A stretch of 32,927 bases of DNA from Candidatus Didemnitutus sp. (lineage in GTDB: Bacteria > Verrucomicrobiota > Verrucomicrobiia > Opitutales > Opitutaceae). The stretch covers positions 1 to 32,927 of the forward strand of contig JAUXXD010000039.1 of assembly GCA_030681265.1 (NCBI GenBank). The letters are read 5' to 3'. How positions within the stretch are numbered: position 1 is the first letter of the stretch; each line of letters opens with the position of its first letter. Positions 3,584-24,293 of the stretch are shown one piece after another. The notes below the pieces were generated by a model. The model ran no database searches. It saw only the letters and a program-made list of their open reading frames with translations, and was not told the DNA's origin. The translations under genes were made by a program, and so were the position numbers.

Positions 3584-3632
3584 GGGTGTTGGCCCCATCG
3601 ACGGCGCTGTCCCCAAGACGTATCTTGCGACC
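3584..3632 (+). promoter_or_regulatory. Shared operator plus -10 box; predicted leaderless promoter
   Basis: GGGT-N5-CCCCATCG (3584-3600) is a member of the recurring intergenic motif described in this window. The hexamer TATCTT (3621-3626) begins 28 bp after the first C of CCCC and ends 6 bases before the ATG at 3633, so transcription should start at or within a base or two of the start codon. The arrangement repeats at 18118-18165 and 24089-24137. Confidence 0.55.
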
Positions 3633-3809
3633 ATGAATCTCAATTACCTCCTCGGCCTGCTCTTGTTTATTTTTTGGATCGTTGCGCTGGTCGACTGCAT
3701 CAAGGGCAACAGTCCGAACAAGCTGCTCTGGATCGTGCTCATCGTCTTGGTGCCTTTTCTCGGCTCGATCCTCTATTTCCTACTCGGTCGTAGTCCGGCT
3801 CGCGTCTGA
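3633..3809 (+). CDS. Small membrane protein, PLDc_N-like (cardiolipin synthase N-terminal type)
   Basis: 58 residues: two hydrophobic helices joined by a short loop containing DCIKGNSPNK, ending after LYFLLGR. This matches the phospholipase-D nuclease N-terminal family, which occurs as stand-alone small inner-membrane proteins and at the start of cardiolipin synthases. An upstream in-frame GTG at 3582 would add 17 unrelated residues and overlap the operator motif, so the ATG at 3633 is preferred. No Shine-Dalgarno sequence is present, in line with a leaderless transcript. The function of the stand-alone form is not established; its operator groups it with stress- and envelope-type genes in this window. 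Confidence 0.75.
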   Translation: MNLNYLLGLLLFIFWIVALVDCIKGNSPNKLLWIVLIVLVPFLGSILYFLLGRSPARV

Positions 3810-6150: not shown

Positions 6151-6172
6151 CTATGGAGTGACCACCCCATAG
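6151..6172 (+). promoter_or_regulatory. Perfectly spaced dyad of the CCCCATAG operator family
   Basis: CTATGGAGTG (6151-6160), two bases, then CACCCCATAG (6163-6172): an inverted repeat with 9 of 10 positions paired. The right half is the CCCCATAG core of the motif seen before six other transcription units. It lies between the divergent VTT (start 6102) and pagL-like (start 6234) genes and could serve either. Unlike the other sites, no convincing -10 box is found 27-28 bp downstream in either direction. Confidence 0.45.
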
Positions 6173-6233: not shown

Positions 6234-6824
6234 ATGTCTCCGTTCATCAAGTCCGTCCTGTTCGGTTCCACCCTGTGTGTGGTCGTGTTGGCCAACGAGT
6301 CGCCACCCACTCCTCCTTGGGCGGCCAGCGCACTGACTTTTGAAACCGGCGTGCTCTGGGAAATCGGCACAGGCACACCTTTCGCATACCACCTCGTGCC
6401 CGCGCAACTCTCGTGGCGCTCCGCGGAATTCTGGCACCGTGAATATTCCGACGGAACGCGCCTCGTCCTTCGTCACCGGCTCACGCTGCTGGTCGATCTG
6501 TTGCAAAGCGGACCGGAGTCCCGCTATCTCGGATTCTCCGCTTCGCCTTCACTGGAATGGTGGAATCGCTCCGCCACCATGTCGCTGTTCGCCGGTATCG
6601 GCGGCGGTTTCGGACTCACTGATTCGCGCGGAAACACTGGCGGACTCGGTCAGGACTTTACGCTCAACTGGTTTATTCGCGGTGGCATCGAACAGGCCAT
6701 CGCGCCCGGGCGCAGCGTGAGCGCGGGGTTGATGTATCAACACTTGTCCAACGGCGGCATGACCACCCCGAATCCGAGCATCAACGCGCTGGGCTTCACG
6801 CTTGGCTACAGTTGGCGCTACTGA
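6234..6824 (+). CDS. PagL-like acyloxyacyl hydrolase family outer-membrane protein
   Basis: 196 residues: an N-terminal signal segment (about 1-20), alternating polar/hydrophobic strands typical of a small beta-barrel, and a C-terminal aromatic residue (GYSWRY). The signature YQHLSNGGMTTPNPSIN (168-184) matches the active-site region of lipid A 3-O-deacylase PagL, with His170 and Ser172 in the positions of the catalytic His and Ser. The catalytic Glu of Pseudomonas PagL lies 12 residues after the Ser; here that position is Asn184. The fold assignment is solid, but deacylase activity is uncertain. The gene has its own promoter region with an operator dyad (6151-6172). I see no Shine-Dalgarno sequence. 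Confidence 0.75.
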   Translation: MSPFIKSVLFGSTLCVVVLANESPPTPPWAASALTFETGVLWEIGTGTPFAYHLVPAQLSWRSAEFWHREYSDGTRLVLRHRLTLLVDLLQSGPESRYLGFSASPSLEWWNRSATMSLFAGIGGGFGLTDSRGNTGGLGQDFTLNWFIRGGIEQAIAPGRSVSAGLMYQHLSNGGMTTPNPSINALGFTLGYSWRY

Positions 6825-7752: not shown

Positions 7753-7882
7753 TCAGAAGATTGGCCACCAAAAACACCAAGAACACAAAAACAGTCGGAG
7801 CAAATTGGCATCGCGCCCATGGGCGCGCCAGATGTCCGCAGATCGGACCGACCTATTTTGTGTTTTCGTGGCCAAAGATCTG
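7753..7882. repeat. Dispersed inverted-repeat element, copy B
   Basis: Ends are TTGGCCACCAAAAACACC (7761-7778) and the inverted match TGTTTTCGTGGCCAA (7861-7875). A perfect 16-bp palindrome, CGCGCCCATGGGCGCG (7812-7827), lies inside. Terminal repeats with a central GCGCC/GGCGC hairpin are shared with copy C. Confidence 0.65.
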
Positions 7883-8041: not shown

Positions 8042-8731
8042 CGGCTCACCACTGCGCCGCAACCAGCGCAAATGCACGCCGGCCACAATCACGCCCAGCA
8101 CGGTGCCGGCGAGAACGTCGAGCGCCACATGCTGCCGCGTGGCAATGGTGGAATAGAGGATGCCGACGCACCACAGCCAGTTGAGCATGCGCGCCGAGCG
8201 ACTCGCGTTCATCTGTCGCAGTAGTCGCTCGAACCAAACCGCGCTGAACACGGCAAAGGCCACATGCAGCGACGGACACGCGTTGCCCGCCGCATCAGTA
8301 GATTTGAGCCAAGCGATTGACTGGTGCTGCGACCAGTCGATGTCTGGCGCCGGCACCGCGGTTGGCCAAAAAAAGAAAATTCCGAGACCAACGGCACTCA
8401 GCGCCACCCATGCCACGGCCATGGACCAAAGCTCGCGCCGGTCGATTACCAGCGCTGGTGCCAGCGACACATATAACCAGAGCGAAAAATAAAGCGGCAG
8501 CGCGGCGGGCTGGAATCCGATCCACCGATCAACCGCCGTGAACGGGATGATCGTGACTGGAAACTGCGGATGATTGAGCACCCAGAAATAGACCGTGAAG
8601 AACACCATCATCCCCAGCGAAGTGCCGACCAACTTGATCGGCCACGACACGAACAGACGCGCGCACGCCTCCGACCAACGAAACGTTTTTGTGCCCTGAA
8701 TTAGGCGGGAGTGCGAACGCGCCGGATTCAC
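8033..8731 (-). CDS. PAP2-superfamily membrane phosphatase/transferase
   Basis: 232 residues with about six transmembrane helices. The PAP2 motifs are ACPSLHVAF (His156 in the PSLH position) and TRQHVALDVLAG (Arg199, His201, Asp205), with the T-x-Q-H-x-x-x-D form found in the PAP2_3 group related to inositol-phosphorylceramide and sphingomyelin synthases. The classical first motif (K-x6-R-P) is not evident, which also fits PAP2_3. It probably acts on a lipid phosphate or transfers a phospho-headgroup. The start is GTG and overlaps the stop of the upstream gene (GTGA), so the two are translationally coupled. Its 3' end touches repeat copy C. Confidence 0.75.
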   Translation of the reverse strand: MNPARSHSRLIQGTKTFRWSEACARLFVSWPIKLVGTSLGMMVFFTVYFWVLNHPQFPVTIIPFTAVDRWIGFQPAALPLYFSLWLYVSLAPALVIDRRELWSMAVAWVALSAVGLGIFFFWPTAVPAPDIDWSQHQSIAWLKSTDAAGNACPSLHVAFAVFSAVWFERLLRQMNASRSARMLNWLWCVGILYSTIATRQHVALDVLAGTVLGVIVAGVHLRWLRRSGEPNC

Positions 8732-9309
8732 TTTCGGTTATCGTGCTTCTTCTTGTCCTTGTTCTTGTCTTTGTCCTTGTCGCGACCGTCACCGTCCGAG
8801 TCGCGTTCGTCGTGATTTTTGTTCTGCGGGTGAACATCGCGACGGTTATCATGCTTGTCCTCATGTTGGAGTCGCACGCGGGTGCCAAAATAATTGGACG
8901 GGTAACGGCCCACGACTTTCTCGTGATAAGTGTAGGGCCGGTCAGTGAACATGTTCACCGTCACACTGCGGCCGAAATCGATGCGCACAAAATCGGGCAA
9001 GTTGCGGTTCGAGCGCCATTGGCCGCGTTCCAAGTAGAACCACATCTGGTCGGACTGGCGGTAATAGACATCGTCGCCCGGATAATAGTAGTAGGCGCGG
9101 CTGCGCTGATACCAATGACCACGGTGTTCCCACTGGTGCGGACCGTGGCTATCGTTTTCCTGCACCACGATGACGACGGCGGGAGGCGGCGGAGGCGCAC
9201 GACGCCCGAGCCGGATGTCGATGGTGACGTTATCGAGAAGATCGGCGCGAGCGCTGGCCGCGGAGATCGCGAGCAGCACGAAGGAGAGGAAGATCAATTT
9301 TGTTTTCAT
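8728..9309 (-). CDS. Secreted protein with aromatic-rich core and Asp/Lys repeat tail
   Basis: 193 residues. A signal peptide (MKTKLIFLSFVLLAISAASA) is followed by a proline run, a Tyr/Trp-rich region (HWYQRSRAYYYYPGDDVYY, QMWFYLERGQW) and a basic segment around YPSNYFGTR. The last 45 residues are nearly all Asp, Lys, Arg, Asn and His, including a run of alternating D and K. Such tails usually bind ions, nucleic acid or polymers, but the function is unknown to me. It is the first gene of a two-gene operon with the PAP2 protein and overlaps it by four bases (GTGA). Confidence 0.65.
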   Translation of the reverse strand: MKTKLIFLSFVLLAISAASARADLLDNVTIDIRLGRRAPPPPPAVVIVVQENDSHGPHQWEHRGHWYQRSRAYYYYPGDDVYYRQSDQMWFYLERGQWRSNRNLPDFVRIDFGRSVTVNMFTDRPYTYHEKVVGRYPSNYFGTRVRLQHEDKHDNRRDVHPQNKNHDERDSDGDGRDKDKDKNKDKKKHDNRK

Positions 9310-9439: not shown

Positions 9440-9511
9440 AGGTGAATACCCCATAGGGTCAGGCCCCATTGTTGATTGGAAAGACCTAGGGCAATGTAAC
9501 GCTATTCTTGA
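9440..9511 (+). promoter_or_regulatory. Double CCCCAT operator upstream of kaiC
   Basis: Two overlapping motif copies: AGGT-N5-CCCCATAG (9440-9456) and GGGT-N4-CCCCATT (9456-9470). TTGATT (9472-9477), then 17 bases, then TGTAAC (9495-9500) is a possible weak promoter. No clear -10 box is found 27-28 bp after either CCCC. No Shine-Dalgarno sequence precedes the ATG at 9512. Confidence 0.45.
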
Positions 9512-11275
9512 ATGAAAAAGAAAGGCACCAAATCCCTCTCACCAAAGACGACACTTTTGCCCAAGTGTCCCACGGGAATCCAAGGCCTCGACGAAATCAC
9601 AGGCGGCGGGTTGCCCTGCGGACGCCCGACACTGATCTGCGGCGGCGCGGGTTGCGGCAAGACGTTGCTGGCCGCGGAATTCCTCGTGCGCGGCGCGACG
9701 CAATTCGACGAGCCGGGTGTGTTCATGGCTTTCGAGGAAACCGAGGGTGAACTGAAGGCCAACGTCTCGTCCCTCGGTTATGATCTGGCGGGCCTCGTCC
9801 GCCGAAAATTGATTGTGGTGGACTACGTCCATATCGAGCGCAGCGAAGTCCAGGAAAGCGGCGAGTATGATCTCGAAGGATTATTCGTTCGGCTCGGGCA
9901 CGCGATTGATTCCATCGGGGCGAAGCGCGTGGTGTTGGACACGATGGAGGTGCTCTTTGCCAGCCTGCCCAACGAGGCGGTATTGCGGAGCGAACTGCGA
10001 CGGCTCTTCCGTTGGCTCAAGGACAAAGGCGTGACCGCCGTCATCACCGCGGAGCGCGGCCGCGAATCGCTCACGCGCCACGGGCTGGAGGAATATGTTT
10101 CCGACTGCGTCATCTTGCTCGACCACCGGGTCAACGACCAGATCGCCACGCGACATTTGCGCGTAGTGAAATACCGCGGCGCCCTGCACGGCACCAACGA
10201 GTTTCCCTTCCTCATCGGCGAAGAGGGCCTGAGCGTGCTGCCTATCACATCGTTGGGGTTGCATCACAACGTGACGAACGAGCGCATTGCCACTGGTATC
10301 CCACGGCTCGACGCCATGCTCGGCGGGCGCGGTTTTTTTCGCGGCAGCAGCATTTTGCTCACCGGCACGGCCGGCACCGGCAAGACGATCATCTCCTCCA
10401 ATTTCGCCGAAGCTGCCGGGCGTCGCGGCGAGCGTGTGCTCTTCTTTTCGTTCGAGGAATCGCCCAACCAAATCGTGCGCAACATGCATGCCATCGGGTT
10501 GCGCTTGGAACCGCTGGTGAAACGCGACTTGCTGCGCTTTCACTCCGCCCGACCCTCGCTTTGTGGTCTGGAAATGCATCTCGCCACGATGTTCAAAGAG
10601 ATCGCCACGTTTCAGCCACATGTGGTCATCGTGGACCCCATTACCAGTTTGATGGAGCTAGGCACCGTCTCCGAGGGCAAGGGTATGGTCACGCGCTTGA
10701 TCGATTATCTGAAGGCCAGACATATCACTTCGCTCTTCACCAGTCTGACCCAAGGTGGTCACGCCCTGAATCAAAGTGAGGGCGGTATGTCCTCGTTGAT
10801 GGATGCGTGGATGTTGCTGCAAGATTTCGAGGGCAACGGCGAACGCAACCGCGTGTTTTACGTGCTCAAGGCGCGCGGCATGGCGCATTCGAACCAGATC
10901 CGCGAGTTCCTGATTTCGGACCACGGCATCGACATCGTTGACGCTTACATTGGACCCAGTGGCGTGTTGACCGGCTCCGCCCGTGTGGCGCAGGAAGCAC
11001 TCGAAAATGCCGCCGTGCTGACCGGCCAACAGGAGGCCGCTCGACTCAAACGCGAAGTGGAGCGCAAGCGCACGGCCATCGAACGCCAGATCAGCGGGCT
11101 GCGCTCAGACTATGAAGCCGAAGCCGAGGAACTGCGGCGCATTGCGGAACAGGTCGGCACCAGCACACTCAAATTAACCACCGAACGCGCGGCCTCCGGG
11201 CTCCTGCGCCAAGCGGATGCCAAAGTGGCAGCCAACAGTCGGGGCAAAGCCAAGCCACGCGAGGCAAACCTGTGA
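9512..11275 (+). CDS. kaiC: KaiC-like double RecA-fold ATPase/kinase
   Basis: 587 residues with the two-lobed KaiC layout. CI lobe: Walker A GGAGCGKT (44-51), the catalytic Glu pair in AFEETEGE (75-76), Walker B RVVLD (Asp143). CII lobe: Walker A GTAGTGKT (285-292), Glu pair in SFEESPNQ (315-316), Walker B VVIVD (Asp375). The cyanobacterial Ser431/Thr432 autophosphorylation pair aligns with Ser427/Ser428 in GGMSSLMDAW, so the sites are kept as Ser-Ser. IREFLISDHGIDI matches the conserved CII end. A C-terminal extension (about 491-587) rich in Glu, Arg and Lys is probably coiled-coil and replaces the cyanobacterial A-loop tail. KaiC hydrolyses ATP and autophosphorylates in a hexamer. No kaiA is present; two kaiB genes follow directly. 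Confidence 0.92.
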   Translation: MKKKGTKSLSPKTTLLPKCPTGIQGLDEITGGGLPCGRPTLICGGAGCGKTLLAAEFLVRGATQFDEPGVFMAFEETEGELKANVSSLGYDLAGLVRRKLIVVDYVHIERSEVQESGEYDLEGLFVRLGHAIDSIGAKRVVLDTMEVLFASLPNEAVLRSELRRLFRWLKDKGVTAVITAERGRESLTRHGLEEYVSDCVILLDHRVNDQIATRHLRVVKYRGALHGTNEFPFLIGEEGLSVLPITSLGLHHNVTNERIATGIPRLDAMLGGRGFFRGSSILLTGTAGTGKTIISSNFAEAAGRRGERVLFFSFEESPNQIVRNMHAIGLRLEPLVKRDLLRFHSARPSLCGLEMHLATMFKEIATFQPHVVIVDPITSLMELGTVSEGKGMVTRLIDYLKARHITSLFTSLTQGGHALNQSEGGMSSLMDAWMLLQDFEGNGERNRVFYVLKARGMAHSNQIREFLISDHGIDIVDAYIGPSGVLTGSARVAQEALENAAVLTGQQEAARLKREVERKRTAIERQISGLRSDYEAEAEELRRIAEQVGTSTLKLTTERAASGLLRQADAKVAANSRGKAKPREANL

Positions 11276-11616
11276 TAACCCAACCCAAAAAACGCCGACT
11301 CCTTGCCCGGCACGCAATCGGTCCCCCCTGGCAACTGCGCCTTTACGTGATCGACTCGACTCCCAAATCGGTGACGGCATTTGCGAACCTGAAGTCGTTT
11401 TGCGAGACCCACCTCAAAGGCCATTATCGGATCAAGGTGATTGATCTGCAGAAGCATCCCCACCTCGCCAAAGACGACCAGATCCTCGCTGTGCCCACCG
11501 TAGTGCGCCGGTTGCCAAAGCCCATCCGCACGATCATTGGCAACCTGTCCGATACCCAACGCGCACTTATCGGCCTGGACTTGCGGCCGGTCGCTCAACC
11601 GAGACCACCATTCTGA
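11272..11616 (+). CDS. kaiB: KaiB-like protein 1
   Basis: 114 residues, GTG start overlapping the kaiC stop (GTGA). LRLYVIDSTPKSVTAFANLK is the first strand and helix of the KaiB fold. YRIKVIDLQKHPHLAKDDQI and LAVPTVVRRLPKPIRTIIG follow, and NLSDTQRALIGLDL closes the domain. KaiB is a thioredoxin-like, fold-switching protein that docks on the CI ring of KaiC. An N-terminal basic extension of about 20 residues and a short proline-rich tail differ from cyanobacterial KaiB. This copy is closer to the classical sequence than the second one. Position and coupling argue that it works on the KaiC encoded just upstream. Confidence 0.9.
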   Translation: MITQPKKRRLLARHAIGPPWQLRLYVIDSTPKSVTAFANLKSFCETHLKGHYRIKVIDLQKHPHLAKDDQILAVPTVVRRLPKPIRTIIGNLSDTQRALIGLDLRPVAQPRPPF

Positions 11617-11687
11617 AAGCCAAGAAGACCAGCCGGGCCAAGCCGGTCACCACCAAGTTCCCCCGCCACCAGCCCAAGGACAATTAT

Positions 11688-11966
11688 GTGCTGCGCCTGT
11701 TCGTGGCGGGAGCCACCACCCGCTCGCATCAAGCCGTGCGGCGCGTCCGGGTGTTGTGCGAAACCATCCTGAAAGACCGGGTCAAACTCGAAGTGATCGA
11801 CATCTATCAGCAGCCCGCACTGGCGCGCGCCAACCAGATCGTCGCCACGCCGACGCTCATTATCGTTCTGCCGCTGCCATTACGCCGGTTCATCGGTAAC
11901 CTCACCGACATCACCGAACTTTTCAGCCTGTTGGATTTAGGGGTTAAAAATAAAATCATCCTGTGA
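11688..11966 (+). CDS. kaiB: KaiB-like protein 2
   Basis: 92 residues from GTG 11688: LRLFVAGATTRSHQAVRRVR, LEVIDIYQQPALARANQIVA, TPTLIIVLPLPLRRFIG, NLTDITELFSLLDLG. The KaiB fold is complete, but the end of the domain diverges from copy 1 and from cyanobacterial KaiB (LFSLLDLG in place of LIGLDL). The frame is open upstream back to the kaiB1 stop and encodes a basic stretch; a CTG (11613) that would overlap that stop as CTGA, or an ATT at 11610, are possible rare starts. GTG 11688 falls exactly at the first KaiB strand and is the conservative choice. The stop overlaps the kinase start (GTGA). Two unequal KaiB copies suggest split duties, such as KaiC remodelling versus signalling to the kinase. 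Confidence 0.85.
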   Translation: MLRLFVAGATTRSHQAVRRVRVLCETILKDRVKLEVIDIYQQPALARANQIVATPTLIIVLPLPLRRFIGNLTDITELFSLLDLGVKNKIIL

Positions 11967-13213
11967 AAAAATCCCGTCCTCAGCCCGTCCGCGCCAAGCC
12001 TGCCCGCTTGCCTCACCGCAAGCCGGCGAAGGTGGACGAACTCGCCGAGCTTCGTGGGCGCCTCGCCGAAGCCACCGAGACGCTGCGCGCCATCCGCGGC
12101 GGCGAAGTGGACACGGTAGTTGTGGCAAGCAAGCAAGGTCCGCAAGTTTTCACCCTCGAAGGCGCCGAGCACGCCTACCGCGTGCTGATCGAATCCATGA
12201 ACGAGGGCGCACTGACGCTGACGTCCGACGCCGTCATCCTCTACGCCAACCAATGTTTTGCCCAGATGGTTCGGCGTCCTCTGGCGCAGGTGATAGGCAT
12301 TTCCTTCCGCCACTTTCTTTTCGCCGATGATCGGGCCCGGCTCAAGCCGCTGCTGAAGCAGTCTGCCGCCTCGGGCGCCAAGCTCTCCGTGCTGCTCAAG
12401 ATCAGCGACGACTCGCAAATGCCGGTGCAACTCTCCCTCCGTCCCATGGCCCGGGAAAAATCCGAAAGCACGATCTTCGGTCTCGTGGTCACTGACATGA
12501 CCGAGGCGCGGCGCAGTGAGGAACAACTGCGCGCCTTGGCGCACCGGGTAGTGCAGGTGCAGGAAGCCGAGCGCAGCAGCGTCGCGCTCGATCTGCACGA
12601 TCACATTACCCAACCACTGATTGCCGTGCTGTTCAGCAGCCAGGCGTTGGCGAACAAGCTTTCGCAGCACGACGGCCCGGCCAAGCGTGAGGCGGTAAAA
12701 CTTCGCACGTTGCTCGGCCGCACCGCCGACGAGGTGGAACGCATCGCACGCAATCTGCGGCCGAGCATCCTCGACCAGCTCGGCCTCTTCGCAATGCTAC
12801 GCGTCACCTGCAACGAATTCGCGACGCGCACCGGCCTTGCAGTCAAGCTGGAGGGCGCGCCCTTGGTCGTGCGGCTGCCCGCCGACGCCGAACTGGCACT
12901 CTACCGCATCGCGCAAGAGGCCCTGAAAAATATCGAGAAGCACGCCCACGCCAAGCACGTCACCGTTTCACTGCGCCCAGCAGGCGCCTATGTCCAGTTG
13001 GTGATCAATGACGACGGGATCGGCTTCGACGAAAAGCATCACGCCGCCCGGCGCAGCGACCAAGGAATCCTCGGACTAGCCGGCATGCGCGAGCGCGCCG
13101 CTTATGTGGGCGCCACCCTCACAGTCAAATCCGGCCGGCGTGCCGGCACCGAAATCGAAGTGCGCATCCCCCATCCGACCGGCACCACCACGGCGGCTCA
13201 GTCTGCCGCCTAA
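11963..13213 (+). CDS. PAS-domain histidine kinase of the HisKA_3 (NarX/DesK) type
   Basis: 416 residues, GTG start overlapping the kaiB2 stop. A basic N-terminus and short coiled region (about 25-45) lead to a PAS domain (about 65-185, ending TDMTEARRSEEQL). The HisKA_3 dimerisation segment carries phospho-acceptor His212 in LDLHDHITQ. The HATPase domain has RIAQEALKNIEKHAHA (N box), NDDGIGF (G1) and GLAGMRERA (G2). There is no transmembrane segment, so it is cytoplasmic. Its coupling to kaiC and kaiB puts it in the place SasA holds in cyanobacteria, as output kinase, but it senses through PAS and has no KaiB-like domain of its own. The likely partner regulator is the NarL-type protein encoded at 17331-18017. 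Confidence 0.88.
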   Translation: MKKSRPQPVRAKPARLPHRKPAKVDELAELRGRLAEATETLRAIRGGEVDTVVVASKQGPQVFTLEGAEHAYRVLIESMNEGALTLTSDAVILYANQCFAQMVRRPLAQVIGISFRHFLFADDRARLKPLLKQSAASGAKLSVLLKISDDSQMPVQLSLRPMAREKSESTIFGLVVTDMTEARRSEEQLRALAHRVVQVQEAERSSVALDLHDHITQPLIAVLFSSQALANKLSQHDGPAKREAVKLRTLLGRTADEVERIARNLRPSILDQLGLFAMLRVTCNEFATRTGLAVKLEGAPLVVRLPADAELALYRIAQEALKNIEKHAHAKHVTVSLRPAGAYVQLVINDDGIGFDEKHHAARRSDQGILGLAGMRERAAYVGATLTVKSGRRAGTEIEVRIPHPTGTTTAAQSAA

Positions 13214-13483: not shown

Positions 13484-16400
13484 ATGAAAGCTCTTAAAAC
13501 AAAACCTCAATCCCCTGCTCCCGCCGCTTCCGGCTGCCCCATCGTCGGCGTCGGCGCGTCAGCCGGCGGCCTGGAGGCTTACACGCAGTTGCTGATGCAA
13601 CTGCCGCTGGACACTGGCTTCGGCTTCGTGCTGGTGCAGCACCTCGATCCGCAACATGACAGTGCGCTGACGCAACTGCTCGCGCGGACGACGGCGATGC
13701 CCGTGTGCGAGGCGACCCACAATCTCCGGGTGCAGGCGAACAAGGTTTATATCATCCCGCCGAACACGAGCATGGGCATCTCGCGCGGACGACTGAAACT
13801 GCAGCCCCGCAAACGCAACGGCACCTCGGCCCACTCGATCGACTTCTTTTTTGAGGCACTGGCCCATGACCAACAGGAACGCGCCGTCGGCGTGATCCTC
13901 TCCGGCAACGCCAGCGATGGCACGATCGGCCTCGAGGCCATCAAGGCCGAAGGTGGTCTCACTTTCGCACAGGACGACTCCGCCCGCTACGACTCGATGC
14001 CGCGTAGCGCCATCGCGGCCGGTTGTGTGGACTCCGTGCTTTCGCCAACCCAGATTGCGCGCGAACTGGCACGGATCGCGCAGCATCCCTATGTCGCCGG
14101 CCGGTCCACGGCAAAGGCCCCGCGTCCCCGCGCGGCGCCCCCCCCGACGACCGCCGCCACCGATCTGTCCGAAACGGATGGCTACAAGAAAATTCTCCTC
14201 CTGCTCCGCAACCACAGCGGAGTCGACTTTTCCCATTACAAGTCCAGCACCGTTCACCGGCGCATGACGCGGCGCGCGGTGTTGAACCACCGGGAGTCGC
14301 TCGAGAGCTATGCTGATTTTCTGCGGGGCAATGAGAAGGAACTCGACGCGCTTTACTCCGATTCGCTCATCAGTGTGACGAGTTTCTTCCGCAACGCCGA
14401 TGCCTTCGCTGCGCTCAAAGCCAAGGTGCTGCCGAAGCTGCTCGCCGCGCGCAGCGACGATCCCGTGCGCGTTTGGGTGCTCGGTTGTTCCTCCGGACAG
14501 GAGGCATATTCCATCGCGATGTTGTTCACCGAAGCCGCGGAGAAATCCCACCGGCCGCGCCAGCTCCAAATTTTCGCCACCGACCTGAGCGAGGCCAATC
14601 TGGAAAGAGCCCGCCACGGGCTCTACCCCAAGAGTATCACGTCCGACGTCTCGCCGGAGCGGCTGCGGCGCTTTTTTGTGGCGGAGGAAGGCGGCTACCG
14701 GGTCATCAAATCCCTGCGCGAGCAGGTCGTGTTTGCCCGTCACAATCTCATCAGCGATCCGCCGTTCTCCCGCATGGATCTGATCACGTGCCGCAACGTG
14801 ATGATTTATTTCGAACCGAGTCTGCAAAAGAAGGCGCTGCCCGCCTTCCACTATGCGCTCAAGCCGGAAGGCTATCTGTTCCTCGGCGCGTCGGAATCCG
14901 TCAGCGCTTTTATCGATTTGTTCTCACAGGTGGACAAGCGACAGAAGATTTTCGCCAAGAAGGCGGCGCCGAACCTCGCTTTTCATCTGCCGCTGCGCAG
15001 CGAGTCCAGCGTGAGACTCGGTGCGGTGCGCGCTCCGGCCCTGACCGGCCGCGGCCATGGCGGTGCCGCCGAAGCCTTCCGCGGCGAACTCAACGCCGAA
15101 CGCGAAGCCGACCGCGTAACGGTCAACCAGTTCGCCCCGCCGAGCGTGCTGATCAACGAGGACCTGCAAATCCTGCAATTTCGCGGTCCGACCGGTCTCT
15201 ATCTCGAACCGCCGACCGGCAAGGCGCGCTTCGATCTGCTGAAGATGGCCCGCGATGGCCTGATGCTGCCACTGCGCGCCACGATTAACCGAGCAAAGAA
15301 GAGCCACCAGACCGCCCGCAAAACGAGTGTGGAATTTAAATCGGAGGGCAAAAATCGCGTCGTGCACCTCGAAGTCGTCCCGCTGAAAAATCTCAAGGAG
15401 CGCCGTTACTTGGTCCTATTTGAAGATCCGGACAAACTTGGCCATTCCCTCCTGTCCGCAGAGGAGACCCCGGCCCGGGCACCCATCAGTAAGCGCGAGG
15501 AAGCCAGCCGCATCGCCAGTCTGGAACAGGATCTGGCGGAGACGCGTGACTACCTGCAGTCCATTCAGGAACACCAGGAGGCCGCCAACGAGGAACTCCA
15601 AGCATCCAACGAGGAAGGCCAGTCCGCCAACGAGGAGTTGCAGAGCCTCAACGAAGAATTGGAAACCTCCAAGGAGGAGCTCGAGTCCACCAACGAAGAA
15701 CTCACCACCGTCAACGAGGAGATGGTCAGCCGGAACGCCGAACTCAATCGCCTCAACGGCGATCTCACCAACCTCCAGACCTCGACCAAGCTCGTCATTT
15801 TGTTGCTCGGGCGCGACCTGACGATCCGACGCTTCAGCGCGCAGGCCGAGAAGCAATTCAACCTCCACGCCAGTGATCTGGGCCGGTTCATCGGCGGCAT
15901 CCGCCACAACCTCGACGTGCCCGACCTCGAGACACTCATCACCGAAGTCATCACGACCGTCCGCGAGTGCGAGCGCGAAGTGCAGACACGGGACGGACAC
16001 TGGTATTCGCTGCGCGTGCGCCCTTACCTCACCCTCGACAACAAGGTGGACGGGGCGGTGCTGGTGCTGGTCGATATTGACGTGGCCAAGCAGGCCGGGC
16101 GCGAAGTCGCGCGTGCCCGCGATTTCGCCGAGGCCGTCATCGACACGATGCGCGACCCGCTCCTGATCCTAGACGTCGAGTTCCGGGTCCAGAAAGCCAA
16201 CGAATCTTTTTTCGCCACCTTCAAGGCTTCCCCGGAAAATACCCTCGGGCATTCGGTCTTCCGGCTCGGCGAAGGCAACTGGAACCTCCCTTCGCTGCGG
16301 AAGCTGCTGCGCGAAATCCTGCCGCGCCATAATTCCTTCAATGATTTCGAGGTCACGCATGATTTTGCCCGCCTCGGTCGTCGCACCTTTCTCCTGCACG

Positions 16401-16657
16401 CCCGGATGCTGAGCCAAGACCCCGGTCATCGGGAGAAAATCTTGCTCGGATTTCAGGATATCACCCAGCGCAGAAAAACCGAAAACGCTTTGCTTACCGT
16501 CCAAGACCTGCTGGCCAAGATCGCCGTGAAACAGGAGGAGCTCGTGATCAAGCGCACCAAACAGCTGACTTCGACCAACAAGAAACTGGTCTCGTCCTTG
16601 ACCACCACTCGCTTGGGTGCAGAAAAAACCGGGCACTGCTCCTCGAATCTCAGGTGA
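13484..16657 (+). CDS. CheB-CheR-PAS signalling protein, separated from its kinase module by a probable frameshift
   Basis: 1057 residues as read. CheB methylesterase-like domain (about 18-200): GVGASAGG with Ser26, VQHLDP with His53, GNASDG with Asp145, so the Ser-His-Asp triad is present. CheR methyltransferase domain (about 232-490): SAM loop LGCSSGQEAYSIAM (333-346, with Gln where CheR usually has Glu), FATDLSE, and DLITCRNVMIYF. Then a linker, a long Asn-Glu-Glu-Leu repeat coiled coil (about 679-760) and two PAS domains (about 765-875 and 880-1000). Proteins of this class normally continue into a HisKA_3/HATPase kinase. Here the frame ends in an out-of-character tail (KTGHCSSNLR) after an A6 run at 16623-16628; the -1 frame continues with the expected NRALLLESQV and runs into the next gene. 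The start at 13484 has a weak AAGG upstream. Confidence 0.88.
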   Translation: MKALKTKPQSPAPAASGCPIVGVGASAGGLEAYTQLLMQLPLDTGFGFVLVQHLDPQHDSALTQLLARTTAMPVCEATHNLRVQANKVYIIPPNTSMGISRGRLKLQPRKRNGTSAHSIDFFFEALAHDQQERAVGVILSGNASDGTIGLEAIKAEGGLTFAQDDSARYDSMPRSAIAAGCVDSVLSPTQIARELARIAQHPYVAGRSTAKAPRPRAAPPPTTAATDLSETDGYKKILLLLRNHSGVDFSHYKSSTVHRRMTRRAVLNHRESLESYADFLRGNEKELDALYSDSLISVTSFFRNADAFAALKAKVLPKLLAARSDDPVRVWVLGCSSGQEAYSIAMLFTEAAEKSHRPRQLQIFATDLSEANLERARHGLYPKSITSDVSPERLRRFFVAEEGGYRVIKSLREQVVFARHNLISDPPFSRMDLITCRNVMIYFEPSLQKKALPAFHYALKPEGYLFLGASESVSAFIDLFSQVDKRQKIFAKKAAPNLAFHLPLRSESSVRLGAVRAPALTGRGHGGAAEAFRGELNAEREADRVTVNQFAPPSVLINEDLQILQFRGPTGLYLEPPTGKARFDLLKMARDGLMLPLRATINRAKKSHQTARKTSVEFKSEGKNRVVHLEVVPLKNLKERRYLVLFEDPDKLGHSLLSAEETPARAPISKREEASRIASLEQDLAETRDYLQSIQEHQEAANEELQASNEEGQSANEELQSLNEELETSKEELESTNEELTTVNEEMVSRNAELNRLNGDLTNLQTSTKLVILLLGRDLTIRRFSAQAEKQFNLHASDLGRFIGGIRHNLDVPDLETLITEVITTVRECEREVQTRDGHWYSLRVRPYLTLDNKVDGAVLVLVDIDVAKQAGREVARARDFAEAVIDTMRDPLLILDVEFRVQKANESFFATFKASPENTLGHSVFRLGEGNWNLPSLRKLLREILPRHNSFNDFEVTHDFARLGRRTFLLHARMLSQDPGHREKILLGFQDITQRRKTENALLTVQDLLAKIAVKQEELVIKRTKQLTSTNKKLVSSLTTTRLGAEKTGHCSSNLR

Positions 16658-17334
16658 TGCACAAGAAACTCCGTCACTTGACCCACCAAATCCTCACCAC
16701 GCAGGAAGAGGAACGGAAGAAGATCAGCCGGGAACTACACGACGAAGTCGTGCAGACGCTGGTCGGCATCAACGTCGAGCTCTCGTCCCTGATGCACGGC
16801 AACACCTCCGAGGTGGAACACCTGAAAGAAAAAATCGCCCGCACCCAGCGGCTGGTGGAGGACTCCGTGGACTCCGTGCACCGGTTCGCTCGCGACCTCC
16901 GGCCGGCCGTGCTCGACGACCTCGGCCTGATCCCAGCCCTGCACGCCTTCTGCAAGAGCCTGCCCGCTCGGAAAAATCTCAAGATCCACCTGACCGCTTT
17001 CAGCGGCGTTGAGAAGCTGGAGAGCGACCGGCGCATCGTGCTCTACCGCGTCGCCCAAGAAGCGCTCACCAACGTCGCCCGCCACGCGCGCGCTACGACC
17101 GTCAAAATCAGCATCCTGAAAATCGGCGACAAGCTCCGAATGGAGATCCGCGACAACGGCAAAGCGTTCTCCGTCCGGAAAATTTTGCACGCCAAGAGCA
17201 AACGACTGGGCCTGGTTGGCATGAAGGAGCGGGTCGAGATGGTCGACGGCTCGTTCACGATCGAATCCACGCCCGGCAAGGGCACCGTCGTGCGCGCCGA
17301 AATCCCGTTCATCGCGGGAAAATCAATTAAATGA
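16654..17334 (+). CDS. Histidine kinase module (HisKA_3 + HATPase), probably the 3' half of the CheB-CheR-PAS kinase
   Basis: 226 residues from GTG 16654, overlapping the previous stop (GTGATG; an ATG at 16657 is equally possible). HisKA_3 has ISRELHDEVVQ with phospho-acceptor His29. The HATPase part has YRVAQEALTNVARHAR, the unusually ending IRDNGKAF (G1) and LGLVGMKERV (G2). It has no sensor of its own. The frame stays open upstream of the start and reads naturally as NRALLLESQVMHKKLRH, which is how intact relatives connect PAS domains to the kinase. With one extra A, or a -1 slip at the A6 run, the product would be a single protein of about 1283 residues. Whether the split is real, programmed or a sequencing error cannot be told here. 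The stop overlaps the regulator start (ATGA). Confidence 0.85.
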   Translation: MMHKKLRHLTHQILTTQEEERKKISRELHDEVVQTLVGINVELSSLMHGNTSEVEHLKEKIARTQRLVEDSVDSVHRFARDLRPAVLDDLGLIPALHAFCKSLPARKNLKIHLTAFSGVEKLESDRRIVLYRVAQEALTNVARHARATTVKISILKIGDKLRMEIRDNGKAFSVRKILHAKSKRLGLVGMKERVEMVDGSFTIESTPGKGTVVRAEIPFIAGKSIK

Positions 17335-18017
17335 CCGCTCCTCAACAAATCACCATCCTGCTCGCCGAGGATCACGCCATCGTTCGCCAAGGTCTGAGCG
17401 CGTTGTTGCACGTTGAGGACAATTTCAAACTTGTCGGCCAAGCCTGCACGGGCCGAGAAGCGGTGGCACTCGCCGCCAAACTTCAACCCGACGTCATCAT
17501 GATGGACATCGCCATGCCCATGCTCAACGGCTTGGAAGCGACGTGCCAAATCCTCACCGCCAATCCCGCCGCGAAGGTGGTCATCCTTTCCGCCCACAGT
17601 GATGATGTCTACGTCGAGCGCATGATCGAGGTCGGCGTGAAGGGCTTTCTGGAGAAGCAGACCTCGGCGGAGATTCTCATCAAAGCTATCCGCGCGATCG
17701 CCGAAGGCCGCACTTTTTTCAGCCCGTCCATTGCCAAGCGCTTGCAAGATAATCCCAATCGGCCACGCGATCGCAACGGCCTGATCAAGGCCAGCGGCAG
17801 CCGACTGACCTCTCGCGAATCCGAGGTGCTGCAGCTCGTCGCCGAAGGATTGGCGAACAAGCAGGTCGCCGCCGAACTCGGCATCAGCATCAAAACCGTC
17901 GAGAAACACCGCCAGCACCTGATGGACAAGCTCAACATCCATGACACCGCCAGCCTGACCCGCTACGCCATCGCCCGCGGCGTCATCGAAAGCAGCGTGC
18001 AAGTGACGATCATCTGA
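17331..18017 (+). CDS. NarL/LuxR-family response regulator
   Basis: 228 residues. Receiver domain (about 7-125): acidic pocket AEDH, phospho-acceptor Asp59 in MMDIAMP, switch Ser in VVILSAH, and Lys in GFLEKQ. LuxR-type helix-turn-helix (about 158-222): LTSRESEVLQLVAEGLANKQ, then VAAELGISIKTVEKHRQHLM. It is coupled by ATGA to the HisKA_3 kinase module, the standard pairing for this type of regulator, and it may also receive phosphate from the Kai-linked kinase. A decayed copy of its last 30 codons lies at 18967-19060. It is the only DNA-binding regulator in the window, which makes it the first candidate for the GGGT-N4-CCCCATAG sites, one of which starts 100 bases downstream of its stop. Confidence 0.92.
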   Translation: MTAPQQITILLAEDHAIVRQGLSALLHVEDNFKLVGQACTGREAVALAAKLQPDVIMMDIAMPMLNGLEATCQILTANPAAKVVILSAHSDDVYVERMIEVGVKGFLEKQTSAEILIKAIRAIAEGRTFFSPSIAKRLQDNPNRPRDRNGLIKASGSRLTSRESEVLQLVAEGLANKQVAAELGISIKTVEKHRQHLMDKLNIHDTASLTRYAIARGVIESSVQVTII

Positions 18018-18117: not shown

Positions 18118-18165
18118 GGGTTGTGCCCCATAGCGAAAGGTCGCCGAAGGGCTATAATTGCTGCT
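18118..18165 (+). promoter_or_regulatory. Shared operator plus consensus TATAAT; predicted leaderless promoter
   Basis: GGGT-N4-CCCCATAG (18118-18133) is followed by a perfect TATAAT (18153-18158), 27 bp from the first C of CCCC. The ATG at 18166 begins 7 bases after the hexamer, the usual distance to +1, so the mRNA should be leaderless. No -35 hexamer is seen at the normal spacing; the operator occupies that place, as for an activator touching RNA polymerase at -35 to -40. Confidence 0.6.
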
Positions 18166-18951
18166 ATGAATATCAAACAACTCTCCTCGTTGGTTGCGGT
18201 CGCACTCGCCGCTCTCGCGCCATCAGTCGGCGCGCAAACGATGGTCAATCTGGGCTCCGCCTCGACCTTCGCCGTTCTGGCGGGCACCACGATCACGAGC
18301 ACCGGAGCGACAACTCTCACCGGCGACCTCGGAGTCAGTCCAGGAGCCACCGTGACGGAAACACCCGCGATGACAGTGAGCGGAACCCGCCACGTGAACG
18401 ACAGCACCGCCAGTGCGGCACAGTTAGCCCTCACGGCGGCCTATAACGACGCCTCGACGCAGACGCCCACGCTCTCTCTCGGCGCGACCTACGATCTTGG
18501 CGGGCAGACATGGCAGCCCGGGGTTTACAACAGCTCAGGCTCGTTCGCGGTCACTGGGATTCTCATCCTCGATGCCCAAAGCGATCCCAATGCCGTCTGG
18601 ATTTTCCAAGCCGGATCCACTCTCACCACGGCGACCAACAGCCAGATTCAACTCATCAACGGTGCCCAAGCAGCCAACGTCTTCTGGCAGGTCGGCAGCT
18701 CGGCCACGCTCAACACCTCCTCCCAATTCGCGGGTAATGTCCTGGCCTTGACCAGCATCACCTTGACCACCGGCGCCATCGTGGACGGTCGGATGCTCGC
18801 GCGAAACGGTGCGGTGACCTTTGATACCAACACTGTCACGGTTCCGACAGCCATTCCCGAGCCCTCCACCTATGCCATCCTCGCGGGATTGGCGGCACTG
18901 GCCACGGTCATGGTCCGCCGCTCCGTCCGCCGAGGCGCGAACGAACTCTAA
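18166..18951 (+). CDS. Ice-binding-like (DUF3494) protein with PEP-CTERM anchor
   Basis: 261 residues. Signal peptide (about 1-22, cut after VGAQ or close by), then a repetitive Thr/Ala/Gly-rich beta-helix region with the DUF3494 features: LGSASTFAVLAGTTITSTGA, TLTGDLGVSPG, PGVYNSSG, DPNAVWIFQAGSTL and NVFWQVGSSATL. The end is a PEP-CTERM signal: IPEPSTY, a hydrophobic helix and an Arg-rich tail (VRRSVRR). DUF3494 includes the ice-binding proteins of polar bacteria and fungi, but many mesophile members exist, so ice binding is not assured; adhesion to a surface or polymer is an alternative. An upstream in-frame ATG at 18052 would bury the signal peptide and the promoter and is rejected. The flanking regulator fragments suggest the gene was inserted beside the regulator. 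Confidence 0.85.
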   Translation: MNIKQLSSLVAVALAALAPSVGAQTMVNLGSASTFAVLAGTTITSTGATTLTGDLGVSPGATVTETPAMTVSGTRHVNDSTASAAQLALTAAYNDASTQTPTLSLGATYDLGGQTWQPGVYNSSGSFAVTGILILDAQSDPNAVWIFQAGSTLTTATNSQIQLINGAQAANVFWQVGSSATLNTSSQFAGNVLALTSITLTTGAIVDGRMLARNGAVTFDTNTVTVPTAIPEPSTYAILAGLAALATVMVRRSVRRGANEL

Positions 18952-18966: not shown

Positions 18967-19060
18967 AATAAACTCAACATCCACGACACGGCCGGTCTCA
19001 CGCGCTACGCCCATCGCGCAAGGCGTGCTCGAAAGCAGCGTGCAGGTGACGATCAACTAG
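18967..19060 (+). pseudogene. Decayed copy of a LuxR-type response regulator 3' end
   Basis: Reads NKLNIHDTAGLTRYA, then one extra C shifts the frame, then IAQGVLESSVQVTIN and stop. The intact regulator (17331-18017) ends DKLNIHDTASLTRYAIARGV followed by IESSVQVTII. The copy is about 80% identical in DNA over some 93 bases and lies 15 bases after the ice-binding gene, in the same orientation as the parent. It is either the remnant of a second regulator gene or a duplication made when the ice-binding gene arrived. Confidence 0.8.
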
Positions 19061-20083: not shown

Positions 20084-20354
20084 TCACTTGGAGGTGACCG
20101 GTTGGGGTTTCCCCACGGTGAGCTGGTTGTCCACGAGTTCCAACCGGGCGGCAGCGATGGCGATTTTCGCCGAGGCGGCGACGATCATCTTCGGTGTCGG
20201 TCCAGCCGCGCAGCGGCACGCGATCATGCAGCGTGCCGACTTCGACGTTCCAGACGTTGCTCTTGGTGGCGCGAAAATCGCGATCGATGCGCCCGGTCTG
20301 GTCGATGTCCCGCTAGCTCCGGACCTGCATGATCGCGACGTCGATGCGCGGGTT
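20084..20354 (-). pseudogene. Decayed BON-domain copy related to the PRC/BON gene
   Basis: On the minus strand this reads NPRIDVAIMQVRS, a stop codon, RDIDQTGRIDRDF, EVGTLHDRVPLRGW, then a frameshift and KIAIAAARLELVDNQLTVGK. The intact protein encoded at 20885-21976 ends with GPRTNVALRQGDSYRDIDQT, IGTLNDRVTLRGWAY and ASRVELVDNQITVGK, so the two align throughout. One nonsense change (Tyr to stop) and one frameshift disable it. It abuts the stop of the small coiled-coil gene. With the leader of the PEP-CTERM gene it accounts for the 421 bases without an intact gene between 19933 and 20353. Confidence 0.8.
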
Positions 20355-20884: not shown

Positions 20885-21976
20885 CTAGTTGGCCGCCACT
20901 GGTTTGCCCACGGTAATTTGGTTGTCCACGAGTTCGACGCGGGAAGCGGCAATCGCGATTTCGCCGAGGCGGTTTTTATCGGACTCGGAGTAGGCCCAGC
21001 CGCGCAACGTCACGCGGTCATTGAGTGTGCCGATCTCAATATTGCGGGCGTCGATATTCGAAGCGTGGATATTTTTGTTGATCCGCACCGTTTGGTCGAT
21101 GTCGCGATAGCTATCGCCTTGGCGGAGGGCGACGTTGGTGCGCGGGCCTTGGTAGGATTCTTCTTTGTAGTAGGACTCGTTGCCGTAAGCGGCCGGGGTG
21201 AAGATATAGCGCGGCTCTTTGGCGTATTCGATCTTGGTGCTATCGAGTAGCAGCGCTGTCCGCGCGGGATTGAAACTCAGGGCCATGGCTGGGATGACGC
21301 TCTTCGTCAGGAAATTGCCCGGCGCGAGCACGATGACGTTCAGGATGCGACCGCGCGGGATATCCATCGTGAGGGTCCACACCTTGCCGAACGGTTCGCC
21401 CTGCAGATTACCCACGGGCAAATCGAGTAGTTTCTGACAGCGCTCCACGGTGCCAAGTGCGACTTTCGGGCGAACATCCGTCTTGCTGGCGGTGTCGCCT
21501 TCCTCGAGGAAATAGGGCTCTTGACCGAACAGGCGATAGGCCGCCGCAACGCGGCGACTCCGACCGTAGTCTTCCCAATTCGAGAGGTCGATCGCCGCGG
21601 CCGTTTTAAACGTGGCCGTGCTGACGTTCAGCCGGTAGACGTTGTTGATCATGTCCGGCATGAAGGCGAGCGGTGGCACCGCCACGACCTTATTACCCAC
21701 ATCGAGTGAGCTGTCGGACTCGATCAGCGCTTCGACAATACGGCCATTGATCAGATCGACGCCGAGGTCGATAATGCGGCCCAAGGGCTCATCCTGAAAA
21801 TTTCTGACTTCAATGCGGATGAAGTAGTTGGAAGTTTTCTCCGGTCCGAGTTTTACCTTTTCGCCAGTCACGACCAGTGGGTCGAGTTTGACGGGAGGGT
21901 CAGATTGCGCCCAAGCGGACAGGGAGAAGGTGGCGGCGATAGCCGCACCGATGGCAAGTTTAAGGAATGTTTTCAT
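20885..21976 (-). CDS. Exported PRC-barrel / BON-domain protein
   Basis: 363 residues from the ATG at 21976. Signal peptide (about 1-23, ending SAWA). Two PRC-barrel-like units: about 50-110 (FIRIEVRNFQDEPLGRIIDL, GRIVEALIE) and about 180-235 (LLDLPVGNLQGEPFGKVWTL, GRILNVIVLAPG). A BON domain closes the protein (about 288-357: YRDIDQTVRINK, IEIGTLNDRVTLRGW, RVELVDNQITVGK). PRC barrels and BON domains are often found in osmotic- or envelope-stress proteins of the OsmY type; BON binds membranes or polymers. An upstream reading from 22090 would run through the -10 region and is rejected. The gene is first in an operon with the coiled-coil protein and has the operator with TATATT. Confidence 0.78.
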   Translation of the reverse strand: MKTFLKLAIGAAIAATFSLSAWAQSDPPVKLDPLVVTGEKVKLGPEKTSNYFIRIEVRNFQDEPLGRIIDLGVDLINGRIVEALIESDSSLDVGNKVVAVPPLAFMPDMINNVYRLNVSTATFKTAAAIDLSNWEDYGRSRRVAAAYRLFGQEPYFLEEGDTASKTDVRPKVALGTVERCQKLLDLPVGNLQGEPFGKVWTLTMDIPRGRILNVIVLAPGNFLTKSVIPAMALSFNPARTALLLDSTKIEYAKEPRYIFTPAAYGNESYYKEESYQGPRTNVALRQGDSYRDIDQTVRINKNIHASNIDARNIEIGTLNDRVTLRGWAYSESDKNRLGEIAIAASRVELVDNQITVGKPVAAN

Positions 21977-22088: not shown

Positions 22089-22130
22089 AATATAGGCGAT
22101 AAGCAGAGCGGAGAATATGGGGTTTAACCC
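22089..22130 (-). promoter_or_regulatory. Shared operator plus TATATT -10 for the PRC/BON operon
   Basis: On the minus strand GGGTTAAACCCCATAT (22130-22115) is the operator; TATATT (22094-22089) begins 28 bp after the first C of CCCC. The motif is here nearly a full dyad (GGGTTAAACCC). The ATG is at 21976, so this transcript would carry a leader of about 105 bases, unlike the leaderless cases. Confidence 0.55.
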
Positions 22131-23990: not shown

Positions 23991-24006
23991 CCATGGGGTG
24001 AAACCC
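23991..24006 (-). promoter_or_regulatory. Shared operator upstream of the receiver-cbpA-cbpM operon
   Basis: On the minus strand GGGTTTCACCCCATGG (24006-23991), the GGGT-N4-CCCCAT form, with a dyad GGGT/ACCC. No good -10 box lies 27-28 bp downstream; CTAAGT about 33 bp away is a poor match. It is 15 base pairs wide and lies about 100 bases from the divergent operator at 24089. Confidence 0.45.
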
Positions 24007-24088: not shown

Positions 24089-24137
24089 GGGTAAGGCCCC
24101 ATAGCCGCGGGCCCGACGACCTGTTAATTTTCCCGCC
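24089..24137 (+). promoter_or_regulatory. Shared operator plus TTAATT; predicted leaderless promoter
   Basis: GGGT-N4-CCCCATAG (24089-24104), then TTAATT (24124-24129) beginning 27 bp after the first C of CCCC, then 8 bases to the ATG at 24138. The geometry is the same as at 18118-18165, which supports a real promoter and a start codon at or next to +1. Confidence 0.58.
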
Positions 24138-24293
24138 ATGAACCTACTCTTGTTGATCATCATCCTGTTACTCCTGTTCGGCGGTGGCGGCTTTTATATC
24201 GGCGGTCCCGCCATCGGCGGCAGCGGCATCGGCCTGATCATTCTGATCTTCCTCGTCATTTATATCATGGGTGGTTTCCGCAGCCGGAAATAA
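24138..24293 (+). CDS. 51-residue hydrophobic membrane protein, DUF3309-like
   Basis: Begins MNLLLLIIILLLLFGGGGFY, continues through a glycine-rich turn (IGGPAIGGSGIG) into a second hydrophobic helix (LIILIFLVIYIMGG) and ends in a basic tail (FRSRK). Two helices joined by a Gly-rich loop are typical of DUF3309-type small membrane proteins of unknown function, which are common in stress-induced sets. It is too short for usual gene-length cut-offs and could easily be missed. The operator and -10 box placed exactly before the ATG are the best argument that it is a real gene. There is no Shine-Dalgarno sequence. It stands alone, with a hipA remnant converging from the right. Confidence 0.7.
   Translation: MNLLLLIIILLLLFGGGGFYIGGPAIGGSGIGLIILIFLVIYIMGGFRSRK

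Follow-up and report, generated by a model that had tools for sequence, protein, structure and literature searches.

Introduction

Timers built from KaiB and KaiC without KaiA are widespread, and their output is poorly understood. How such a timer might reach gene expression is the question raised by a contig of Candidatus Didemnitutus sp. (Verrucomicrobiota, Opitutaceae; JAUXXD010000039.1, assembly GCA_030681265.1), whose 32,927 nucleotides, hereafter the window, carry an operon of kaiC, two tandem kaiB genes (kaiB1 and kaiB2) and a gene for a PAS histidine kinase. In particular, the presence of two unequal KaiB proteins beside one KaiC calls for an explanation. We give a probability of roughly 0.5 to the reading that the operon encodes a KaiBC hourglass in which KaiB2 is the detached SasA-type sensor of the kinase, and which feeds an autoregulated regulon. 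A preliminary description of this DNA had suggested that the two KaiBs may divide their work, one acting on KaiC and one on the kinase, a division for which gene junctions, distances, losses and predicted folds now provide indirect support.

The kai Operon and Its KaiC

Profile searches bore out the gene content first described, namely kaiC, two unequal kaiB genes, a PAS kinase without a KaiB-like domain, and no kaiA (Table 1). KaiC matches PF06745 at 1.3e-106 and the NCBIfam model 'circadian clock protein KaiC' (NF006799) with 711 bits against a cut-off of 408, and its nearest solved chains are those of Rhodobacter (Cereibacter) sphaeroides KaiC (KaiC-RS), 8dba (E 2.7e-186) and 8fwi. Its residues E75/E76, E315/E316 and S427/S428 correspond to the catalytic Glu pairs of CI and CII and the Ser-Ser phosphorylation pair of KaiC-RS, and of the allosteric path given in the account of PMC10076222, Trp433, Tyr450, Leu452 and Arg464 are retained, with Ile463 in place of Val449. 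Residues were compared with the protein of C. sphaeroides KD131, whose numbering was shifted by four to match PMC10076222; the published Val421, being Leu in KD131, was left out. In hourglasses of the KaiC-RS type a C-terminal coiled coil links two hexamers; the C-terminal extension of the window's KaiC aligns through residue 536 of 8dba, and a simple periodicity test cannot tell helix from coiled coil in it. The same account describes the KaiC-RS system as an hourglass reset via ATP/ADP, in which KaiB in its fold-switched form binds the CI ring of KaiC-RS. Neither KaiA (PF07688) nor a third KaiB was found in the organism's own genome (98.9% complete, 220 contigs), and the combination of KaiC and KaiB without KaiA fits, at the level of sequence, a KaiBC hourglass of the KaiC-RS type.

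Both KaiB proteins match PF07689 above its cut-off of 27 (KaiB1 82.3 bits, KaiB2 73.9 bits), both stay under the NCBIfam KaiB equivalog cut-offs, and they share 40% identity over 92 residues. The Pfam search identified PAS, HisKA_3 and HATPase_c domains in the kinase and gave no match to KaiB there at E 0.001. The kinase of SasA is of the HisKA type. Being of the HisKA_3 type and without a KaiB domain, the kinase of the operon is not a SasA orthologue, and the earlier label 'SasA-like kinase' has been abandoned; only KaiB2 resembles the sensor of SasA. The first description had kaiC, kaiB1 and the kinase joined by GTGA overlaps; in fact stop/start overlaps chain all four genes, with GTGA at kaiC/kaiB1 and kaiB2/kinase and CTGA at kaiB1/kaiB2. 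The start of kaiB2 is probably CTG 11613, because close relatives show ATG, GTG or TTG at the matching codon, and a start at GTG 11688, taken from a list of reading frames that admitted ATG, GTG and TTG only, was rejected because it truncates a first strand that is conserved in relatives.

Conservation of the Gene Order

A KaiB over the cut-off was found in 36 of the 286 genomes of the class that were searched, and 25 of these have a tandem kaiB pair, so that the two-kaiB arrangement is not due to chance. Upstream of the pair, kaiC is present in 24 of the 25 genomes, the contig edge being reached in the last (G244), and a kinase matching that of the window follows in 24, five of the matches being weak (38-43 bits) and none being seen in G201. 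The gene order recurs in many other Verrucomicrobiota, which excludes the possibility that it is not conserved in any relative. The close form, termed group A, is held by 11 class genomes, the window's own included, eight of them with both KaiBs; G084 and G167 have kaiC-kaiB2-kinase and G137 has kaiB2-kinase.

Named genomes were scanned with KaiB2 as the query, which biases the set towards KaiB2, and from 156 confirmed places 80 loci were kept. According to record titles, these are nearly all Verrucomicrobiota, along with some Lentisphaerae or Victivallales, one Fibrobacteria and two Syntrophaceae records, and the best-matching ones belong to Opitutaceae and other Verrucomicrobiota. Seventy-nine loci were tallied, L182 being omitted since its second KaiB is not assignable. 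Where enough upstream contig was available (60 loci), kaiC was present in 56 and kaiB1 in 47; where enough downstream contig was available (78 loci), the kinase was in place in 73, and of the five counted without it L126, L147 and L166 have it further downstream. KaiC has a match with an E-value of 1e-150 or lower in 16 of 387 phylum genomes, and in the class genome search no KaiB was found in three genus mates; the module is thus patchy.

More distant Verrucomicrobiota operons, with KaiC at about 680-750 bits (L041, L049, L051-L054, L058-L066, L068, L070 and L071), mostly show kaiC-kaiB-kaiB followed by another, often longer kinase. A lone KaiB lies at 5959-6378 of L038, from a genome (G113) without a KaiC match at E 0.001, and the second KaiB of L045 (6277-6635; G059) is frameshifted and spread over two reading frames.

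Two Kinds of KaiB

The two positions separate in a midpoint-rooted FastTree tree, for which 210 KaiB sequences (some genomes were sampled twice) were reduced to 197 distinct ones. Group A has all 52 of its first-position KaiBs in one clade (support 0.96), to which the KaiB of R. sphaeroides and the first one of Pararhizobium also belong, while all 52 second-position KaiBs, together with ten single copies, share a clade with the second Pararhizobium KaiB (support 0.95). Group B, which is more distant, divides in the same way, with 17 of 18 first copies and 18 of 18 second copies in the matching clades.

The two proteins were also modelled with AlphaFold2 from alignments of close sequences (32 for KaiB2 and 33 for KaiB1); as reported in PMC10808063, predictions made from close sequences matched the resting state of several studied KaiBs. 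The KaiB2 model runs strand-helix-strand-helix-strand-strand-helix (mean pLDDT 57), and that of KaiB1 has a helical, strand-ended C-terminal half (mean pLDDT 62). In Foldseek searches, KaiBs in the fold-switched state took ranks 1-10 for the KaiB2 model, with Legionella Lpp1115 (4kun) and KaiB-TV4 (8ubh) among ranks 7, 9 and 10 at 36-40% identity, and SasA-N took rank 11; the top 17 for the KaiB1 model were ground-state KaiB chains. On these models we suggest, with low confidence, that KaiB1 rests in the ground state and KaiB2 in the fold-switched state. Profile models and chains of SasA likewise match KaiB2 better than KaiB1. The three switch prolines described in PMC11551320 are invariant in KaiB1 (33/33) and KaiB2 (32/32), and the Gly that by our mapping matches G88, a reference residue taken from PMC5520375, is present in 33/33 KaiB1 and 8/32 KaiB2 sequences; an Asp matching D90 occurs in 33/33 KaiB1. 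With its ground-state best matches, prolines, Gly and Asp, KaiB1 fits what would be predicted of a fold-switching KaiB.

Pairing of kaiB2 with the Kinase Gene

Overlaps of the form NTGA occur at 49 of 55 kaiC-kaiB1 junctions and at 59 of 70 kaiB2-kinase junctions (6 undetermined), and at only 9 of 62 kaiB1-kaiB2 junctions (7 undetermined). The junctions divide the operon into two coupled pairs, kaiC-kaiB1 and kaiB2-kinase. Among 49 distinct four-gene loci, the partial rank correlation of distances is 0.42 for KaiB2-kinase (bootstrap 0.26 to 0.59), 0.34 for KaiC-KaiB2 and 0.30 for KaiC-KaiB1, and lower for KaiB1-KaiB2 (0.14), KaiC-kinase (0.10) and KaiB1-kinase (0.00). This co-variation forms a chain, KaiB1-KaiC-KaiB2-kinase, in which the KaiC-KaiB2 correlation exceeds what adjacency alone explains.

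Gene losses follow similar lines: ten genomes hold kaiC and kaiB2 with an intact kaiB1 missing, and the kinase is kept with kaiB2. When 13 genomes were re-searched for KaiB, seven, IMCC26134 included, had one copy alone, two had an extra weak KaiB fragment nearby, G167 had its one copy and a weak match elsewhere in the genome, and three had other KaiBs elsewhere. In IMCC26134 (G137, L179) the kaiB2-kinase pair is present with both kaiC and kaiB1 missing. The Oleiharenicola locus L171 was rejected as a second kaiC-less case, because a distant KaiC and a further KaiB are encoded elsewhere in its genome; at this locus, which lacks kaiC and kaiB1, an operator of the kind described below lies directly before kaiB2 (7805-7821). 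The genomes of the lone-KaiB2 loci L168 and L177 have KaiC on other contigs; kaiB1 is missing from L124 and L139, whose genomes carry a further KaiB pair at another place. Among the 211 KaiB reading frames of the loci, no KaiB-kinase fusion was found.

Two other arrangements have to be weighed against these data. Both KaiBs might act alike on KaiC with different affinities, giving a graded timer, with the kinase sensing through its own PAS domain and merely being co-expressed. The three switch prolines common to both KaiBs, the KaiB2-KaiC co-variation of 0.34 and the existence of single-KaiB operons with a kinase, as in C. sphaeroides, would suit this arrangement; however, it is KaiB2, and not KaiB1, that overlaps and co-varies with the kinase, IMCC26134 keeps kaiB2-kinase without kaiC, and the predicted folds of the two KaiBs differ. 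We regard it as rather unlikely. Still somewhat less probable is that KaiB2 has ceased to work via KaiC and regulates the kinase as a thioredoxin-like protein, KaiC-KaiB1 and KaiB2-kinase being separate devices in one operon. The two coupled pairs of junctions, the lack of a residual link from KaiC (0.10) or KaiB1 (0.00) to the kinase, and the kaiB2-kinase pair that stands without kaiC in IMCC26134 speak for such a separation, yet KaiC and KaiB2 co-vary (0.34) despite the kaiB1 gene between them, and kaiC has been kept with kaiB2 in the roughly ten genomes where kaiB1 was lost.

The Operator and the NarL-Type Regulator

The operon that follows encodes a CheB-CheR-PAS protein, a second kinase (HK2) and a NarL/LuxR-type response regulator, whose genes are likewise joined by overlaps. 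In relatives, the regulator orthologue directly follows the kai kinase (L039, L040, L044, L047, L069), HK2 directly precedes kaiC (L039, L047, L055), and in IMCC26134 the gene order is HK2-regulator-kaiB2-kinase. The regulator is present in 35 and HK2 in 27 of the 79 named loci, and all 11 group A genomes have the regulator, ten of them with at least 200 bits, a cut-off chosen after a gap appeared in the scores; the match in G079 is shortened and scores 171.7 bits. As far as gene content can tell, the module takes in the NarL-type regulator, the second kinase and the CheB-CheR-PAS protein, and its output is not the kinase alone. The close Kai form is missing from 49 of the 59 regulator genomes, and Kai therefore looks like an optional input. 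Positions 18970-19058 of the window, behind the ice-binding-like gene, are 83-85% identical to the 3' end of the regulator gene (17928-18015) and represent a remnant of a second regulator copy.

A shared operator before kaiC had been noted earlier, and two tandem sites do stand there, with others before more genes of the window (Table 1); a -10-like CAATGT at 9492-9497 lies at the expected distance from the second of the kaiC sites. The sequence CCCCATAG has four occurrences in the window. Allowing at most one mismatch, GGKNNNNNCCCCATAG has 38 matches in the genome against 33 for a reversed control, so that most scattered genome matches are chance; the window contig holds nine matches (in eight places) against 0.35 expected under an even spread. 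A search for long repeats that might be shared operators yielded weak repeats only, and the first pattern tried matched nothing but itself. Sites on other contigs of the same genome precede genes for dodecin, BON and ice-binding-like proteins.

Relatives carry the site as a near-perfect palindrome, CTATGGGGT-N4-ACCCCATAG, the operator type being GGGGT-N4-ACCCC near -43. In 38 of 59 loci the site stands close to where a module gene begins, compared with 3 of 59 for the control (at most two mismatches, CCCCAT fixed), and 197 matches in 81 loci against 28 with the reversed pattern (the palindrome being counted in both orientations) dispose of chance as its origin. Of 155 operator sites, 61 have a TANNNT at +37 or +38, against a mean of 1.7 per offset, and this spacing places the centre of the palindrome near -43. 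A centre near -43 is the position of a class II activator and suits one of the LuxR/NarL type. The exact palindrome occurs in 36 of the 286 genomes, namely in 30 of the 59 with the regulator (at least 200 bits) and in 6 of the 227 without, and all 18 genomes with three or more exact palindromes carry the regulator; Fisher p values of 1.5e-18 and 4e-14 for this link are a guide only, as the genomes are related and the 200-bit cut-off was chosen with the scores in view. Seven genomes (G021, G055, G168, G244, G245, G265 and G280) have 11 to 18 exact palindromes each and thus larger regulons than the window's own genome, which has none.

A palindrome fixed beside the -10 element and tied to a NarL-type regulator fits the pattern predicted for the regulon of a class II LuxR/NarL-type activator, and from the computed operator, -10 placement and co-occurrence we infer that the regulator binds the operator. 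That the operator belongs to another regulator, of whose regulon the NarL-type regulator and the Kai module are just members, is improbable, since every one of the 18 genomes with at least three sites carries the NarL-type regulator, sites adjoin its gene in several genomes (e.g., G172:C15 and G220:C8) and the centre near -43 suits a LuxR/NarL-type activator, even though six genomes with the exact palindrome have no regulator match of at least 200 bits (one of them, G079, with the shortened match near a site) and the genomes are related, so that the cases are not independent. The feedback of the system on itself, part of the first description, gains indirect support from the operator before kaiC, the -10 spacing and the co-occurrence with the regulator.

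Table 1. Positions of the kai genes, the following operon and the operator sites in the window.
Feature	Position	Strand	Remarks
kaiC	9512..11275	+	587 aa, two KaiC domains and C-terminal extension
kaiB1	11272..11616	+	114 aa, GTG start overlaps kaiC stop; clock-type KaiB
kaiB2	11613..11966	+	117 aa, probable CTG start; second-position KaiB, predicted fold-switched
PAS-HisKA_3-HATPase_c histidine kinase	11963..13213	+	GTG start overlaps kaiB2 stop
CheB-CheR-PAS protein	13484..16657	+	first gene of next operon
HK2, HisKA_3-HATPase_c kinase	16654..17334	+	orthologues precede kaiC in relatives
NarL/LuxR-type response regulator	17331..18017	+	likely operator binder; orthologues follow kai kinase in relatives
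Two tandem operator sites before kaiC	9440..9471	+	9441-9456 GGTGAATACCCCATAG; 9456-9471 GGGTCAGGCCCCATTG
Operator-like site before small PLDc_N membrane protein gene (3633-3806)	3585..3600	+	
Palindromic operator site before PagL-like gene (6234-6824)	6151..6172	.	
Operator site before ice-binding-like PEP-CTERM protein gene (18166-18951)	18118..18133	+	
Operator-like site before PRC/BON-domain gene (minus strand, ends at 20885)	22115..22130	-	
Operator-like site before receiver-domain gene (minus strand, 23536-23928)	23991..24006	-	
Operator site before 51-aa membrane-like protein gene (24138-24293; no Pfam match)	24089..24104	+	

Within and before the PRC/BON gene region, 20106-20166 and 20901-20961 form a 61-nt repeat, 80% identical, which is perhaps a decayed duplicate of the PRC/BON gene. 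Divergent from kaiC, a gene on the minus strand (8728-9309) encodes a protein with a signal-peptide-like start and no Pfam match, and a protein with a similar start (MKTK...ADLLDN) adjoins the kai module in L035 (3464-4099).

A Possible Mechanism

From the computed gene content, order, overlaps, conservation and losses we infer the following steps of binding, phosphorylation and timing. By analogy with R. sphaeroides KaiC, the KaiC of the operon would autophosphorylate unaided, and its state would track ATP/ADP. KaiB1, as a fold switcher of the clock type, would be slow to capture KaiC after hydrolysis, while KaiB2 would rest in a thioredoxin-like fold and, made in step with the PAS kinase through the overlapping gene, would act as that kinase's detached sensor of KaiC, a 'split SasA'. 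The state of KaiC may then gate the kinase, with KaiB1 competing for the same KaiC sites. The kinase, HK2 and the CheB-CheR-PAS protein would together set the phosphorylation of the NarL-type regulator, which would activate the genes behind operators near -43, among them kaiC, as feedback, and envelope or stress genes. For the redox role that had also been proposed, our analysis gave no evidence.

A more far-reaching version can be put forward only tentatively. KaiB2, locked in the thioredoxin-like fold, might be a free-standing, exchangeable kinase sensor, and the KaiC ring a platform on which a slow, fold-switching KaiB1 competes with a KaiB2-kinase pair that is ready at all times; refolding of KaiB1 might then time the regulator and hence kaiC, and the pair in IMCC26134 might have gained a KaiC-free use.

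Several observations weigh against the reading of KaiB2 as the KaiC sensor of the kinase within an autoregulated hourglass. Both AlphaFold2 models are weak, with mean pLDDT values of 57 for KaiB2 and 62 for KaiB1, and ordinary thioredoxins match KaiB2 almost as closely as SasA does (3.6e-4 vs 1e-4). The account in PMC10808063 gives Arg as enriched at KaiB-RS residue 68 in fold-switched KaiB clusters, and at the site that matches it by our mapping all 32 KaiB2 sequences have a hydrophobic residue (L, V, M or A), KaiB1 too being hydrophobic there, so that a locked KaiB2 is not favoured. The junction count takes the start nearest the stop, which favours overlaps, albeit at all three junctions equally, and shared transfer of adjacent genes can produce co-variation. 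IMCC26134 leaves KaiB2 no KaiC to sense. Finally, 29 of the 59 regulator genomes, the window's own included, lack the exact palindrome, which also disqualifies it as a sure marker of the regulator.

Comparison with Known Systems

Operons of kaiC, kaiB and a PAS kinase, as well as tandem kaiB genes, are already known from other bacteria. The KaiBC hourglass of C. sphaeroides, the subject of PMC10076222, likewise lacks KaiA, and its genes stand in the order kaiC-kaiB-kinase; it has one KaiB and an HWE kinase, whereas the present module combines two KaiBs with a kinase of the HisKA_3 type, a NarL-type regulator tied to it and an operator that is shared. In Rhodopseudomonas palustris, a KaiA-less kaiC-kaiB is similarly followed by a PAS histidine kinase gene, and the account in PMC4794148 describes one KaiB there, compared with two here, and mentions neither a regulator nor an operator. 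The plasmid NZ_CP119568.1 of Pararhizobium qamdonense carries kaiC and tandem kaiBs whose copies fall in the same two clades as those of the window; its fourth gene is annotated as 'response regulator' (563 codons), and its KaiC is 59% identical, the organism being more distant. The fold predicted for KaiB2 is the one in which Legionella Lpp1115 (4kun) and KaiB-TV4 (8ubh) rest, as described in PMC10808063; no kinase partner is named for them in the account used here. The model and the profile of KaiB2 resemble the sensor of cyanobacterial SasA (1t4y, 6x61), which forms one chain with its kinase, whereas here the sensor and the HisKA_3 kinase are separate genes. In a literature search that was partial in depth and mostly without subscription journals, no account of this module was recognised.

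Conclusions

One conserved module comprises a whole candidate chain, from a timer and two KaiBs with separable roles to a kinase, a regulator and an operator. It lets one ask whether a metamorphic clock protein can split into a switcher and an adaptor that is always ready, and whether the hourglass timers of non-cyanobacterial bacteria control stress and surface genes.

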